Shown here: positions 49,297-56,058 of the stretch, piece after piece
Layout: each line of letters begins with the position of its first letter
Position numbering within the stretch: position 1 is the stretch's first letter
NCBI GenBank assembly: GCA_027482225.1
Contig: JAIXWD010000020.1
Coordinates: 1 to 64,000, forward strand
Direction of reading: 5' to 3'
Source of the DNA: Bacteroidota bacterium
GTDB lineage: Bacteria > Bacteroidota > Bacteroidia > UKL13-3
DNA length: 64,000 nucleotides
Made by a program: the position numbers and the translations under genes
The notes under the pieces: model-generated
Databases searched by the model: none
What the model saw: only the letters and a program-made list of their open reading frames with translations
Told to the model about the DNA's origin: nothing

Positions 49297-49986
49297 TTAT
49301 GCTATAGTATCTTCATTTTTTTGCATTGTAAATCCTAACAACTTAGCTGTAGGCATTCCACTGCTGTAGCTCATCATATTTTTTTGTTCTACTGTAATAT
49401 AATTTATTGCATCAGTTGGTGGTGCTATCAAATCAAAGTTTAAACAAAATAGCATGGCTTCTTCAATGATTTGACGCAATGTGTCTTTTGAAATTTTATT
49501 CTTTGATAAATCATCAAACATAAAAGAAAGTGGTCTTTTTCCGTCTATAAAAAAGTGCTCATCTTTATTTACAAAAATTCTAGCTATAAGATAACCCATA
49601 TCGTGTTCACGGTTATACTTTATAGAGTCGGAAAGGAAATTATAAATTTGAATTAAACCACAGAATTCTCTTAGTGGATCTTCTTTTACATAATTGGTTT
49701 TACTCACGTAATGATCGTTGTCAAAATCAAAAACATTGGTATGCATCATAATAACCAATGTATCACCACTAAATTTAAGATGTGCTTCAAAATCACCTTT
49801 GTCCATGTATTTAACTTCAACATGAGGAGCGTTGGGGCCAAGTTTTGGGTTAAGTTCTGCCTCAATTTCACGCATCACCATTTTAAGGTCTCTGAAGATT
49901 GATTGAGTTTTAGTAAATACATCTTGTTTGGTAGATGATTTTTTACATAGTAGTTCGTGTATTGTGTTTATTTTAGGTTCACTCAT
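49297..49986 (-). CDS. Conserved-looking hypothetical protein, 229 aa
   Basis: This is a soluble protein with no signal peptide or membrane segment. It has a helical N terminus (1-50), then a beta-containing core with FEAHLKFSGDTLVIMMHTNVFDFD and YLIARIFVNKDEHFFIDG, and an ordered C-terminal part with FCLNFDLIAPPTDAINYITV. I do not recognise the family. It lies downstream of proS on the same strand, 42 bp away, and may be cotranscribed. Confidence 0.7.
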   Translation of the reverse strand: MSEPKINTIHELLCKKSSTKQDVFTKTQSIFRDLKMVMREIEAELNPKLGPNAPHVEVKYMDKGDFEAHLKFSGDTLVIMMHTNVFDFDNDHYVSKTNYVKEDPLREFCGLIQIYNFLSDSIKYNREHDMGYLIARIFVNKDEHFFIDGKRPLSFMFDDLSKNKISKDTLRQIIEEAMLFCLNFDLIAPPTDAINYITVEQKNMMSYSSGMPTAKLLGFTMQKNEDTIA

Positions 49987-50028: not shown

Positions 50029-51504
50029 TTAGTATGCTTTTGCAAACAAAACCCTTTCTTTACTTGGAGCACCTGTTAAAACACATATTCCGTTTTCTTG
50101 CGGGTTGCTTAAAGGCACACAACGAATAGTTGCTTTGGTAAGTTCTTTTATTTTTAACTCAGTTTCTGATGTTCCATCCCAATGTGCACTTACAAATCCT
50201 GTTTTGTTTTCCAGAGCATCTATAAATTCATCCCAGGTATTTACCGCATTAATGTGTTGGTCACGGTAATCCAATGCCTTTTGGTAAATATTTGTTTGAA
50301 TTTGAGACAGCAAGTGTTCTATCTTATGGTCAATATCGATACTGCTCATTACTTGTTTTTCTTTGGTATCTCTGCGGGCAACTTCTACACTTTCGTTAGC
50401 CACATCGCGCGGGCCAATAGCTATGCGAACAGGTACACCTTTTAATTCGTACTCGGCAAATTTATAACCTGGAGTGGTGTTATCACGGTCATCTAATTTC
50501 ACAGAAATGCCTTTTTTACGCAATGCAGATTGAATTTCTTTTGCTTTGTTTAAAACCAATTCTTTCTCTTCTTCTTTTTTGCTAATAATAGGAACAATAA
50601 CAACTTGTATTGGCGCTAAGTTTGGCGGTAGTATCAATCCTTCATCATCACTATGGCTCATTATTAATGCACCCATTAATCGGGTTGATACACCCCATGA
50701 AGTGGCCCAAACATATTCTTGTTTGTTATCCTTTGTAGCATATTTTACATCAAATGCTTTTGCAAAATTCTGCCCTAAAAAGTGCGATGTACCCATTTGT
50801 AAGGCTTTACCATCTTGCATTAAACCTTCAATACAATAGGTTTCTATTGCTCCGGCAAATCGTTCGTTAGCAGTTTTAATACCTTTTACCACTGGCACAG
50901 CCAAAATATTCTCTGCAAAATCGGCATATACTTCCAACATTTGTTTGGTTTCTGCAATAGCTTCTTCAGAAGTGGCATGAGCAGTATGTCCTTCTTGCCA
51001 CAAGAATTCTGTAGTGCGTAAAAATAAACGGGTACGCATTTCCCACCTAACCACGTTAGCCCATTGGTTAACCAAAATGGGTAAATCGCGGTGCGACTTA
51101 ATCCAGTCGCGGTAAGTATTCCAGATAATGGTTTCAGAAGTTGGACGAACAATTAGTTCCTCTTCTAATTTGGCCGTTTCATCTACTACAATTTCTCCAT
51201 TTTCGGCTGTTTTAAGTCTGTAATGGGTAACAACGGCACATTCTTTGGCAAAACCATCCACATGGCTTGCTTCTTTACTAAAAAATGATTTCGGTATAAA
51301 TAATGGAAAGTAGGCGTTTTGATGTCCAGTTTCTTTGAAACGTTTATCTAATTCGGCTTGCATTTTTTCCCAAATAGCATAACCATAAGGTTTAATTACC
51401 ATACAGCCCTTTACGGCCGAATGTTCTGCTAAATCAGCAGATTTAACTAAATTATTGTACCATGCACTGTAGTCTTCGCTTCTTTTTACTTTTTTATTAT
51501 CCAT
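50029..51504 (-). CDS. proS: Prolyl-tRNA synthetase (short, eukaryote/archaea-like type)
   Basis: The protein is 491 aa, shorter than the approximately 570 aa of the E. coli type and lacking its editing insertion. Class II motifs are visible: [21 protein letters not shown] (motif 1 region), [55 protein letters not shown] (motif 2) and [17 protein letters not shown]. The anticodon-binding domain and C-terminal extension follow ([11 protein letters not shown]). It charges tRNA-Pro. A -7-like element, CAAAATTA on the plus strand at 51554-51561, may drive it. Confidence 0.96.
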
Positions 51505-51589: not shown

Positions 51590-52960
51590 ATGCCATATCC
51601 TAAATTAAATATCTTTTATGCCATTCTATTTGGTGCAATTACAATGGTTTCGTGTAATACTCCTCAAGGTGTGCTAAACAGGTTTGAGGATGATGTTTAT
51701 TTTTCGCGCAAGGCTGCAGGAGGTAAGCCTGTTTATGTACCAGAGGTAGATGTAAATGAGATTATTAAAAATAATCCTCCACAATACGGAAATGGAAGTC
51801 AGATTCCTGAAAATTATCAACCGGATCAAAATAACGATAGCAGGGATTATACCAACCCCAATGCGGCCGAAGGTTACAAAAGATACAAACAGGCACAGGA
51901 ACGTGAAAATGAAGAAGCTGCAGTAAATAACGATGGATTTTTAAGTACGGTTCCTTATGCCGGGTATGAAGAAGAAGCGAATGAAGCAAGTTTGCTTCGT
52001 AGACAATATTCAGGCATTTATGGTGGTTATTTTAATAATCCAGGTCGCTTTAACCTTTGGGGTCAACCTAGTTTAAACATGGGATGGAACAATTTTTCTG
52101 GATGGGGAATAGGAATGGGCTTTAATAATGGATGGAATAATGGTTGGAATACAGGCTATGGATTTGGTTGGCCTCACAACAATATTTTTTATGATCCTTT
52201 TTGGGGAGGCAATAATTGGTGTTCGCCATGGAATAGTTTTAACAGTCCTTGGGGTTTTAATTCTTGGGGTTACAATCCGTGGGGTTATAACCCTTGGGGA
52301 TGGGGTGGTTATTATGGTTATAATAATTGGTATGGTTGGGGAAATAGGCCACATCATTTTGTTGGTGGCTGGGGGCATAATCAATTCGAAAACAAAACAC
52401 CAGCTAAAATTTCTCGTCCAAGAGGCAATGGCGCTGGAACTAACATGCCAAGGAATCCAGATGGTGGTAGGGTATCTATGCCGCGTGGAGACCAAACTCA
52501 AACACCACAACCCAATCAAGGTAAAATTGTGATGCCTCGTTCTGGAAATGATGCACAATTAATTAATCGTGATGGGCAGCCAGTATACGTTGCTCCAAAT
52601 CAATACAGAAATACAACGCCTAGGTCTTATAATACCTATCCTAAAAGTATTGATCAAGAACGCAATTACAGAGAGGTGGCGCCACCAAAACCACGAGAGG
52701 TAGTACCATCAAGACCTAACTTTAACAATAGAAATAATACAGCGCCATCTCCAAATGGAAACGATGCACCAACAAACAGTGGAAACGATGTGCCTGCATT
52801 TCGCAGAAATGATATACCGCAAGAGTCATCTCCTGCTCCTCGAAATTACAGTCCTTCACCATCAAGAAACAGTGGAGGAGGAGGTTTTTCTTCGCCACCA
52901 AGTGGAGGTAGCAGAGGTAGTTCAGGAGGAGGAAGTGCACCTCGTTCACGTCCTCGTTAA
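51590..52960 (+). CDS. W/G/N-rich lipoprotein with Pro/Arg/Ser tail
   Basis: The protein is 456 aa from ATG 51590, with signal ending in lipobox MVSC (Cys21). The frame is open to 51530 but the extension is not plausible. Residues about 165-265 are extraordinarily rich in Gly, Trp, Asn, Tyr and Phe (FNNGWNNGWNTGYGFG, NPWGYNPWGWGGYYGY), and from about 280 to the end the chain is Pro/Arg/Asn/Ser-rich with a poly-Gly/Ser region. No domain is recognised. The layout suggests an extended, surface-exposed or matrix-like protein. It heads a plus-strand envelope cluster (FadL-like barrel, patatin, LPP20 lipoproteins). Confidence 0.72.
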   Translation: MPYPKLNIFYAILFGAITMVSCNTPQGVLNRFEDDVYFSRKAAGGKPVYVPEVDVNEIIKNNPPQYGNGSQIPENYQPDQNNDSRDYTNPNAAEGYKRYKQAQERENEEAAVNNDGFLSTVPYAGYEEEANEASLLRRQYSGIYGGYFNNPGRFNLWGQPSLNMGWNNFSGWGIGMGFNNGWNNGWNTGYGFGWPHNNIFYDPFWGGNNWCSPWNSFNSPWGFNSWGYNPWGYNPWGWGGYYGYNNWYGWGNRPHHFVGGWGHNQFENKTPAKISRPRGNGAGTNMPRNPDGGRVSMPRGDQTQTPQPNQGKIVMPRSGNDAQLINRDGQPVYVAPNQYRNTTPRSYNTYPKSIDQERNYREVAPPKPREVVPSRPNFNNRNNTAPSPNGNDAPTNSGNDVPAFRRNDIPQESSPAPRNYSPSPSRNSGGGGFSSPPSGGSRGSSGGGSAPRSRPR

Positions 52961-52991: not shown

Positions 52992-54524
52992 ATGAACAAG
53001 TATAAATTAATGATGGCCGCGGTGATAATAAGTTGCTATGCCCAAGCCCAAAATGAATCAGATATTTTACGCTATTCACAACAGTATAATTTAGGTACTG
53101 CACGTTCGCAAGGTATAGGTGGTGCTTTTGGTGCTGTAGGTGCAGATTATTCATCAACCTACCTAAACCCGGCAGGATTGGGTTTGTATCGTAGAAATGA
53201 AATGCATTTATCAGCCGCTGTAACAGGTACACTTACTTCTGGTAATTTTTTAGGTAGTACGTTAGATGAAAGTAGAACCAATTTTAATATTCCATCTTTT
53301 GGTATTGTATTAAGTAAAGTAAATTCGGGCTTAAGTGGTGATGCTGATCAAGGGATTATCAACTATAACTTTTCTTTCGGGCATAACCGTACTAATCATT
53401 TTCAGCAAAATATTTTCATGGAAGGTTACAATACTAAAAGTCACCTTTCTCAATTTTTTGTGGAGCAATCAAATGGTATTCCATCAAACCAAATAAGTGC
53501 AAATGGTACCGAGTTTGAATTTTACAACATGGGTTGGAATGCCTATTTAACTGATACGGCTGGCAACAATTCAACCTACTATTCTCCATGGTTTAAAGGC
53601 GATAACGATTACCGTGTAAAACAATCCTATCAGATTACAAAACGAGGTTCAATGGATGAATACAACTTCTCAGGGGCAATAAATTTCGATAACGTATTTT
53701 ATTTGGGAGTTGGGCTTGTATTTAATGAATTACTGCAAGAATATAAGTCTGTTTTTACAGAGAGTGACCCGAACAATACAGTAACTACAACCACAGCAGA
53801 TACAGTTGGTAATTTTTACCGTTCAAGTTATTTAAATAGAGATATTAGAACAGAAGGGCAAGGTGTTGCAGGTAGGTTTGGTTTTATACTTCGACCTGTT
53901 GATTTTTTTAGATTTGGCTTATCGGTTCAAACGGCATCACGTATTAACATGAAAGATGATTACCAGTACAAGGTTGGTAGCGATATCAGGTGGCCAAACA
54001 TCGGGCAAAAGAACATTGAAAGTCCACAAGGAACATACGAATATCAACTTATTACGCCTGCTCGTTACACTGCAAGTGCTGCGTTAATGCATCCCAATTT
54101 AGGTTTTATTTCTATTGATGCAGATATGATAAACTATGCTAAGGGGAGGTTATCATCTGTTAATATGGGCGAATTTAGTGATGCCAATGCGCGTGCACGT
54201 AATGATTTTCAGGAAGCTTATCAAGTGCGTGTAGGGGCAGAGTTTAAAATAAAAGATGTGTACCGTTTACGTGCTGGCTATAATTTGGCTACCAATCCAT
54301 ACAGAAATGAAATTGCAGGTGTAAGTAAAGATGATTTAATTCGTCAAGGATTTAGTTTAGGCTCTGGTTATAATGATGGTGTTTATTTTATTGATTTAGC
54401 ATTCGTGCACACCACATTTAATGAATTTTATACACCATATCAATTAAACAGTGGCTATTCGCCAACAGGAAAAGCCGCACATACCATGATAAATGTTGCT
54501 GTAACTGGTGGAGTTCGTTTTTAA
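52992..54524 (+). CDS. OMPP1/FadL/TodX-family outer-membrane transport protein
   Basis: The protein is about 510 aa from ATG 52992 (another ATG lies at 52977). The signal peptide ends CYAQAQ. After it, LGTARSQGIGGAFGAVGADYSSTYLNPAGLG carries the family's conserved N-terminal hatch motif (NPAGL), followed by long beta-strand alternation to the C terminus. FadL proteins move hydrophobic compounds across the outer membrane; PorV-type relatives act in T9SS. Substrate is unknown. It lies 31 bp after the W/G/N-rich lipoprotein, likely cotranscribed. Confidence 0.82.
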   Translation: MNKYKLMMAAVIISCYAQAQNESDILRYSQQYNLGTARSQGIGGAFGAVGADYSSTYLNPAGLGLYRRNEMHLSAAVTGTLTSGNFLGSTLDESRTNFNIPSFGIVLSKVNSGLSGDADQGIINYNFSFGHNRTNHFQQNIFMEGYNTKSHLSQFFVEQSNGIPSNQISANGTEFEFYNMGWNAYLTDTAGNNSTYYSPWFKGDNDYRVKQSYQITKRGSMDEYNFSGAINFDNVFYLGVGLVFNELLQEYKSVFTESDPNNTVTTTTADTVGNFYRSSYLNRDIRTEGQGVAGRFGFILRPVDFFRFGLSVQTASRINMKDDYQYKVGSDIRWPNIGQKNIESPQGTYEYQLITPARYTASAALMHPNLGFISIDADMINYAKGRLSSVNMGEFSDANARARNDFQEAYQVRVGAEFKIKDVYRLRAGYNLATNPYRNEIAGVSKDDLIRQGFSLGSGYNDGVYFIDLAFVHTTFNEFYTPYQLNSGYSPTGKAAHTMINVAVTGGVRF

Positions 54525-55458: not shown

Positions 55459-56058
55459 ATGAAAATTCAGGCGAGTAAGCTGCTAAGTGCAGCATTATTA
55501 TTGGGTGCAATGGCTAGCATTACTGTAGCATGTAAATCAAAAAAAGGAAAACCTATCGAGAAACAATCTGGTGCTACAGAAATAAGCGTTCCGTTTACTG
55601 GCAAAGATTACGAGACCAACAAAGAAATTTTCAGAGCTCGTTCATCAGGAAACAGTATTGATATGGTTACTGCTAAAAAAATAGCACTACAAAATGCCAA
55701 AAGTGAAATGGCTGGTATGATTCAAACCACCATGAAGAAAGTAACGGAGCAATACACCAACCAACGTCAGATTGGAACTAACCAAGAGTTTACCAATAAA
55801 TTTGAAGAGTTGGCACGTGAAGTTACCAACCAAAGTTTAACCGATGTTGCAGTAATTGGCGAGAAAATTTTTAAAGAAACCAACAATACCTTTACCTATT
55901 GGGTAGCTATTGAGGCTAATAAGAAAACAGTTTTGGAAGGTATGGATAAGGCCATTGGTCAGAACCAAAAAATTGCACAAGACTACGATAAGAAAAAGTT
56001 TGAAGAGATCTTTAACAGTGAAATGGAGAAGTTGGCTAAAGAGAGAGCTGGCAATTAA
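55459..56058 (+). CDS. LPP20-like lipoprotein
   Basis: The protein is 199 aa with lipobox TVAC (Cys25). The mature part has MVTAKKIALQNAKSEMAGMI and FTYWVAIEANKKTVLEGM, matching the pattern of the LPP20/LapB-like lipoprotein fold seen in the next gene as well. The C terminus is helical and charged. The family was first described as Helicobacter Lpp20; its job here is unknown. It is followed by a 15-bp hairpin and then a second, longer member of the same type. Confidence 0.72.
   Translation: MKIQASKLLSAALLLGAMASITVACKSKKGKPIEKQSGATEISVPFTGKDYETNKEIFRARSSGNSIDMVTAKKIALQNAKSEMAGMIQTTMKKVTEQYTNQRQIGTNQEFTNKFEELAREVTNQSLTDVAVIGEKIFKETNNTFTYWVAIEANKKTVLEGMDKAIGQNQKIAQDYDKKKFEEIFNSEMEKLAKERAGN

Follow-up and report, generated by a model that had tools for sequence, protein, structure and literature searches.

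Which of its neighbours does the aromatic-rich lipoprotein gene beside proS belong with, and what might its product do? The gene lies in a 64,000-nucleotide stretch of DNA from a Bacteroidota bacterium, referred to here as the window. A preliminary description had placed it at the head of an envelope cluster, as a lipoprotein with a centre packed with Trp, Gly, Asn, Tyr and Phe and with a Pro/Arg/Ser/Gly tail, followed by a FadL-like barrel, a patatin and two LPP20 lipoproteins. In the window, the downstream genes encode a FadL-type barrel, a patatin, a lipoprotein of 199 aa and an LPP20 protein of 460 aa; the features relevant to the analysis are as follows.

49297-49986, minus strand: 229-aa protein of no known family, adjoining proS.
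50029..51504, minus strand: proS (proline-tRNA ligase), divergent neighbour; synteny conserved, not part of the unit.
51590..52960, plus strand: W/G/N/Y-rich lipoprotein gene (open reading frame, 456 aa).
51590..51655, plus strand: signal peptide up to the lipobox Cys22; CNTPQGV from the Cys has no acidic residues, hence no surface-export signal.
51689..51700, plus strand: D-D-V-Y motif at residues 34-37; no other short motif of the lipoprotein family is as well conserved.
52055..52399, plus strand: centre rich in aromatic residues, Gly and Asn (residues 156-270), which carries aromatic-[DNS]-Pro-aromatic repeats; predicted disordered.
52556..52591, plus strand: short predicted beta hairpin, residues 323-334, including the conserved L324/Y333 stretch; local pLDDT about 70.
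52658..52957, plus strand: Arg/Ser/Gly/Pro-rich tail, last 100 residues, with 13 Arg and 1 Lys.
52992..54524, plus strand: FadL-family barrel of the 14-stranded type, the conserved partner gene (frame open from 52977).
55459-56058: lipoprotein of 199 aa without a known family, downstream neighbour.

The make-up first ascribed to the protein, lipoprotein nature, centre and tail alike, was borne out. Its centre (115 aa: 25 Gly, 22 Asn, 17 Trp, 9 Phe and 8 Tyr) is 70% W/G/N/Y/F, and its best 100-residue stretch reaches 76%, against a median of 28% and a runner-up of 47% among the 39 window frames of at least 200 aa. DNA and profile searches found the gene to be single-copy in its own 2.72-Mb genome. 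Compared with four close relatives, dN/dS was 0.04-0.22 in all three regions of the protein (several of the dS values being above 1 and saturated), so that the sequence is not a product of chance or decay; by this comparison all three parts are under purifying selection. D34, D35 and Y37 are invariant in 16 aligned sequences. The AlphaFold model has a pLDDT of 39.8 and a pTM of 0.16, with 379 of the 456 residues below 50, and the hairpin is its most confident part and the sole part approaching confidence; such low confidence over a 16-row alignment suggests that the lipoprotein is disordered. Nothing in Pfam or NCBIfam matched the protein above a curated cut-off (sub-threshold matches only), and ten diverse family members gave no match at E 0.01. 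The scan also found no secretion domain in two members without a lipobox (L068 and L101), and a profile search of the PDB with the N-terminal alignment (A2) returned nothing significant.

Sequence profiles are poor tools for this family. Relatives turned up in 17 of 58 genomes by single-sequence protein search and in 4 of 296 with the N-terminal profile A2, the protein's own genome included in both cases and one A2 match (L042) being spurious; we therefore used synteny instead. Two remote matches had proS on one side and a FadL barrel on the other, which suggested a search beside the barrel, and the barrel profile A3 matched in 227 of the 296 genomes. Sixty phylum-wide loci were picked by hand from these, as strong matches with one to few per genus and with weak matches omitted. 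A script found a secreted aromatic-rich protein upstream of the barrel in 58 of the 60, and inspection by hand added a 59th (L098), whose start the script had missed; L059 has no upstream partner, though its barrel is the best match in that genome. The partner was also upstream in all six loci of family f21. Twenty-four genomes that were negative in the protein search yielded 19 full barrel loci (14 from the window's own family and 5 from others), of which 18 carry the partner, membership being judged by eye for four cut or odd frames (L244, L245, L251 and L253). Among named Flavobacteriaceae-type loci the count was 79 of 80, the last (L168) being cut at a contig edge 10 bases upstream.

In total, 162 of 165 Bacteroidota loci chosen by the barrel alone have a protein of this composition immediately upstream of the barrel, the exceptions being L059 and L247, without a partner, and the contig edge at L168. 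Members of one genus are not independent in these counts, and at least two loci (L083/L148 and L091/L188) are counted in both the phylum and the Flavobacteriaceae sets. Fifteen loci of the window's own family were found via the lipoprotein and are not counted as a test of the pairing. The preliminary description was right in proposing an outer-membrane lipoprotein, so far uncharacterised, that keeps a neighbour. Plain homology search misses the lipoprotein in genomes where it stands beside the barrel in 18 of 19 loci, which is probably why the family escaped notice.

The wider neighbourhood is less constant. proS is present in 12 of the 15 window-family loci, 51 of the 60 phylum-wide loci and 78 of the 80 Flavobacteriaceae loci. 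Nine phylum-wide loci have no proS in the retrieved DNA and eight of them still have the partner, indicating that the lipoprotein travels with the barrel. By gene order, then, the lipoprotein and the FadL barrel together make up the unit that persists. Patatin, the 199-aa lipoprotein and LPP20 occur in 9, 8 and 8 of the 15 window-family loci, respectively, and each in none of the 60 phylum-wide and none of the 80 Flavobacteriaceae loci, with 3-4 kb downstream covered. We therefore rejected an envelope cluster with patatin and LPP20 as a general unit; that company is confined to the window's own family. On the other flank, the 229-aa protein was seen in 11 of the 15 window-family loci versus 1 of the 60.

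The preliminary description thus stands in part. Its barrel and patatin were correctly named, the latter matching its profile with 132.6 bits. The 460-aa neighbour is an LPP20 protein (PF02169, 1.1e-9), whereas the 199-aa lipoprotein matches neither PF02169 nor another family and is not alike to the 460-aa protein (E 0.15). The description had also named unconserved neighbours, or strain specificity with no expression, as grounds for giving it up; the wider cluster is indeed unconserved, but the lipoprotein-barrel pair is kept and the lipoprotein is not strain-specific.

The partner barrel matches PF03349 with 32.6 bits (curated cut-off 29.7) and is the sole Toluene_X protein over the cut-off in its genome. 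Its model (pLDDT 89.1, pTM 0.83) has a FadL-type fold with an N-terminal hatch, and the best structural matches are FadL, TodX, TbuX and CymD (Z 31-34, maximum 33.9). Its identity to FadL and TodX is 12-17%, and the constant lipoprotein partner sets it apart from them. Across 46 barrel sequences, N59 and A61 of the N-P-A motif in the hatch are invariant, and P60 and G62 nearly so. A single-sequence search of the PDB with the barrel found nothing, and the barrel scored 46.8 bits against the PorV/PorQ model NF033709, below its cut-off of 90. As judged by profile and predicted fold, the barrel is a FadL family member, and it may transport hydrophobic molecules. A FadL-like protein has also been described as the receptor of a Bacteroidales toxin (PMC12853789, accessible part).

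Published work had suggested that the barrel might be BamG, which would make the lipoprotein part of BAM. We rejected this assignment. The BamG model NF053685 (cut-off 250 bits) did not report the window barrel, and the genome's own BamG is a separate gene (C4:28399-29607, 335 bits). Profile A3 misses that BamG and matches no BamG chain in the PDB set searched, which includes entries 9n2d and 9hiv; in the structural comparison BamG chains rank lower than the FadL-type channels (Z 30.6-31.7, 12% identity). The distant barrel L108 reached 65.5 bits against the BamG model, far under its cut-off.

The lipoprotein family keeps its composition. Among 74 members, a simple script found a lipobox in 66, the other eight having a signal peptide without one, and D[DNG]xY occurs within the first 75 residues in 67. 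Likewise in 67 of 74, the best 60-residue stretch has an aromatic content above the 99th percentile for 194 open frames taken from their loci. There are 141 occurrences of the motif [YFW][DNS]P[FYW], where shuffled windows would give 12.0; it is present in 59 of the proteins and missing in 15. The last 100 residues of the 74 members hold 998 Arg and 74 Lys, with Arg exceeding Lys in 73. This bias is not a matter of base composition, because in the 23 loci below 40% GC the Arg:Lys ratio is 346:18 in the tails and 389:460 in the adjoining barrels; the Flavobacteriaceae give 1118:8 and 1374:1851, respectively. It is not universal either, as the tail of L245 has 6 Arg and 7 Lys and L110 is another exception. 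Trp is swapped for Tyr or Phe between lineages (L010 versus the window protein), and the aromatic centre is poor in the distant members L106 and L107. Read across these members, the composition of the lipoprotein is kept while its sequence drifts. The suggestion that the protein has a sticker-like composition that could self-associate is supported as far as composition goes.

Some members are unusual in other ways. In L009 and L011 (genomes G027 and G016), near-perfect short repeats of the GWGWNNWNN type make up the centre and differ in copy number between the two, so that the centre seems to grow by tandem duplication. Repeated G-G-F-R units make up the tails of L226-L230 (family f21) and closely resemble the FG/RG repeats typical of condensate-forming proteins. 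In L106 and L107 (genomes G187 and G334), the lipoprotein upstream of the barrel carries CxxCH (CKSCH), the motif through which c-type cytochromes usually attach haem; the two represent either another gene or an aberrant offshoot of the family. The upstream frame of L077 (genome G224) is short (243 aa), with an acidic end and a 305-base gap to the barrel, and its early end is put down to a frameshift or a misassembly peculiar to that genome.

On which side of the membrane would such a protein lie? Surface lipoproteins of Bacteroidota carry acidic residues right after the Cys, within about six positions (PMC5080379 and PMC12578637, accessible parts). In the six positions following the Cys, 65 of the 66 lipobox members have no acidic residue and not one has two; among Flavobacteriaceae lipobox members the count of proteins with acidic residues after the Cys is 0 of 77. 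By this export-signal rule the lipoprotein should face the periplasm.

A probable counterpart of the pair, as judged from gene order and annotation, is Fjoh_4940/4941 of Flavobacterium johnsoniae, where a lipoprotein gene adjoins a FadL-homologue gene and both products are in the outer membrane (PMC12045153). On TamL depletion, the FadL homologue Fjoh_4941 rose 5.6-fold and the adjoining lipoprotein Fjoh_4940 2.6-fold in the outer membrane, and the barrel fell to 0.4 in released vesicles; the authors noted that the proximity of the two genes might indicate a functional link (PMC12045153). As 31 of the 47 affected outer-membrane lipoproteins rose in that study, the increase in Fjoh_4940 is weak evidence for a special link. 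The accessible text treats the pair in one organism and one sentence and does not describe the make-up, spread or membrane side of the lipoprotein. Within the open-access literature, the two genes appeared only in that paper and we found no description of the lipoprotein family. 'Vitellogenin II precursor' is an annotation given to such genes, a name for which no open-access paper was found. Tandem genes of F. collinsii (PMC9950754, accessible part) were considered and are wza/wzz-like and unrelated.

We tentatively favour, at somewhat less than an even chance, the reading that the lipoprotein is a periplasm-facing multivalent "sticker" and the dedicated partner of the downstream FadL barrel, the partnership being read from synteny. 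The protein would lie at the periplasmic face of the outer membrane and use its conserved start (D-D-x-Y) to dock on the barrel. Its body would engage in numerous weak aromatic-arginine contacts, either with itself or at the periplasmic mouth of the barrel. It would thereby gather, hold or gate FadL barrels. Perhaps it forms a membrane-bound condensate that answers outer-membrane stress, as its composition might allow. Many weak contacts are favoured over one snug interface because the pairing is strict, the anchor is lost in some lineages and the composition is kept while the sequence drifts.

Tyr/Arg pairs drive condensation, according to a rule drawn from eukaryotic proteins, and FUS-type proteins combine a Tyr/Gly-rich with an Arg/Gly-rich part as two-part stickers. 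The window lipoprotein shares this two-part make-up; FUS-type proteins are, however, eukaryotic and nuclear or cytoplasmic, and we claim no common descent. CsgF of E. coli curli is likewise bound to the outer membrane and condenses through aromatic residues, but it acts at the cell surface in curli secretion, and no sequence relation is claimed (PMC10133297, accessible part). BamG-BamH resembles the pair in that a FadL-family barrel works with a lipoprotein; BamH is folded and on the surface, whereas the window lipoprotein is predicted to be disordered and to face the periplasm (PMC12611786 and PMC12578637, accessible parts).

The best placed alternative, which we regard as rather doubtful, is a ligand relay, in which hydrophobic compounds imported by the barrel, in the manner of FadL or TodX, are handed to the aromatic lipoprotein at the periplasmic mouth. 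The close structural fit to FadL-type channels, the kept hatch motif and the suitability of aromatic residues for acyl chains would all agree with this. FadL transporters, however, are not known to need such a partner. The relay also leaves the Arg-only tail unexplained.

A wider form of the sticker reading, unlikely in our estimate, would have nearly all Bacteroidota cells form a condensate or brush at the periplasmic surface of the outer membrane from this lipoprotein, a FUS-like two-part sticker (aromatic-Pro-aromatic repeats and an Arg-only tail) tied to a dedicated FadL barrel, so as to gather the barrel or capture hydrophobic cargo. It would then be an ancient extracytoplasmic sticker whose make-up rather than sequence is under selection.

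Quite unlikely is a lipoprotein that helps the FadL barrel to fold or fills its pore. The strict one-to-one neighbourhood would suit such a role, and there are precedents for lipoproteins or linkers within barrels, such as LptE as the helper or plug of LptD. The BamP linker, which enters BamA, is another (PMC12611786, accessible part). Fast sequence drift with kept composition is nevertheless ill-suited to a snug plug, and several families have dropped the lipid anchor.

A surface role, in which the protein is exported together with the barrel or through it and forms a matrix or binds glycans, seems to us decidedly unlikely. In its favour, chains rich in Trp, Tyr and Gly are able to stack on sugars. 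FadL-like barrels of this phylum also hold surface proteins, as in BamG-BamH (PMC12611786, accessible part) and, reportedly, the PorP-like proteins (PMC9143113). Against it, the export signal is absent from all 66 and all 77 lipobox members and no known domain was found in Pfam or NCBIfam; nothing in our analysis points to the sugar binding or surface matrix proposed in the preliminary description. Very improbable, finally, is a low-complexity passenger kept beside the barrel merely by slow gene shuffling, since, old and stable as the proS-lipoprotein-barrel order is, the low dN/dS, the partner's persistence in loci without nearby proS and a composition held against drift all speak against it.

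Overall, the earlier interpretation is partly supported. A barrel with a lipoprotein is of a kind already known in Bacteroidota; a partner predicted to be disordered, with a sticker-like composition kept across the phylum, appears to be new within the open-access literature. Barrel-lipoprotein pairs abound in the Bacteroidota outer membrane, some of them first described in 2025, and the present one is a further phylum-wide pair that family libraries leave unnamed. If the pair works as proposed, it would offer a genetic handle on disordered aromatic-arginine proteins that act outside the cytoplasm.
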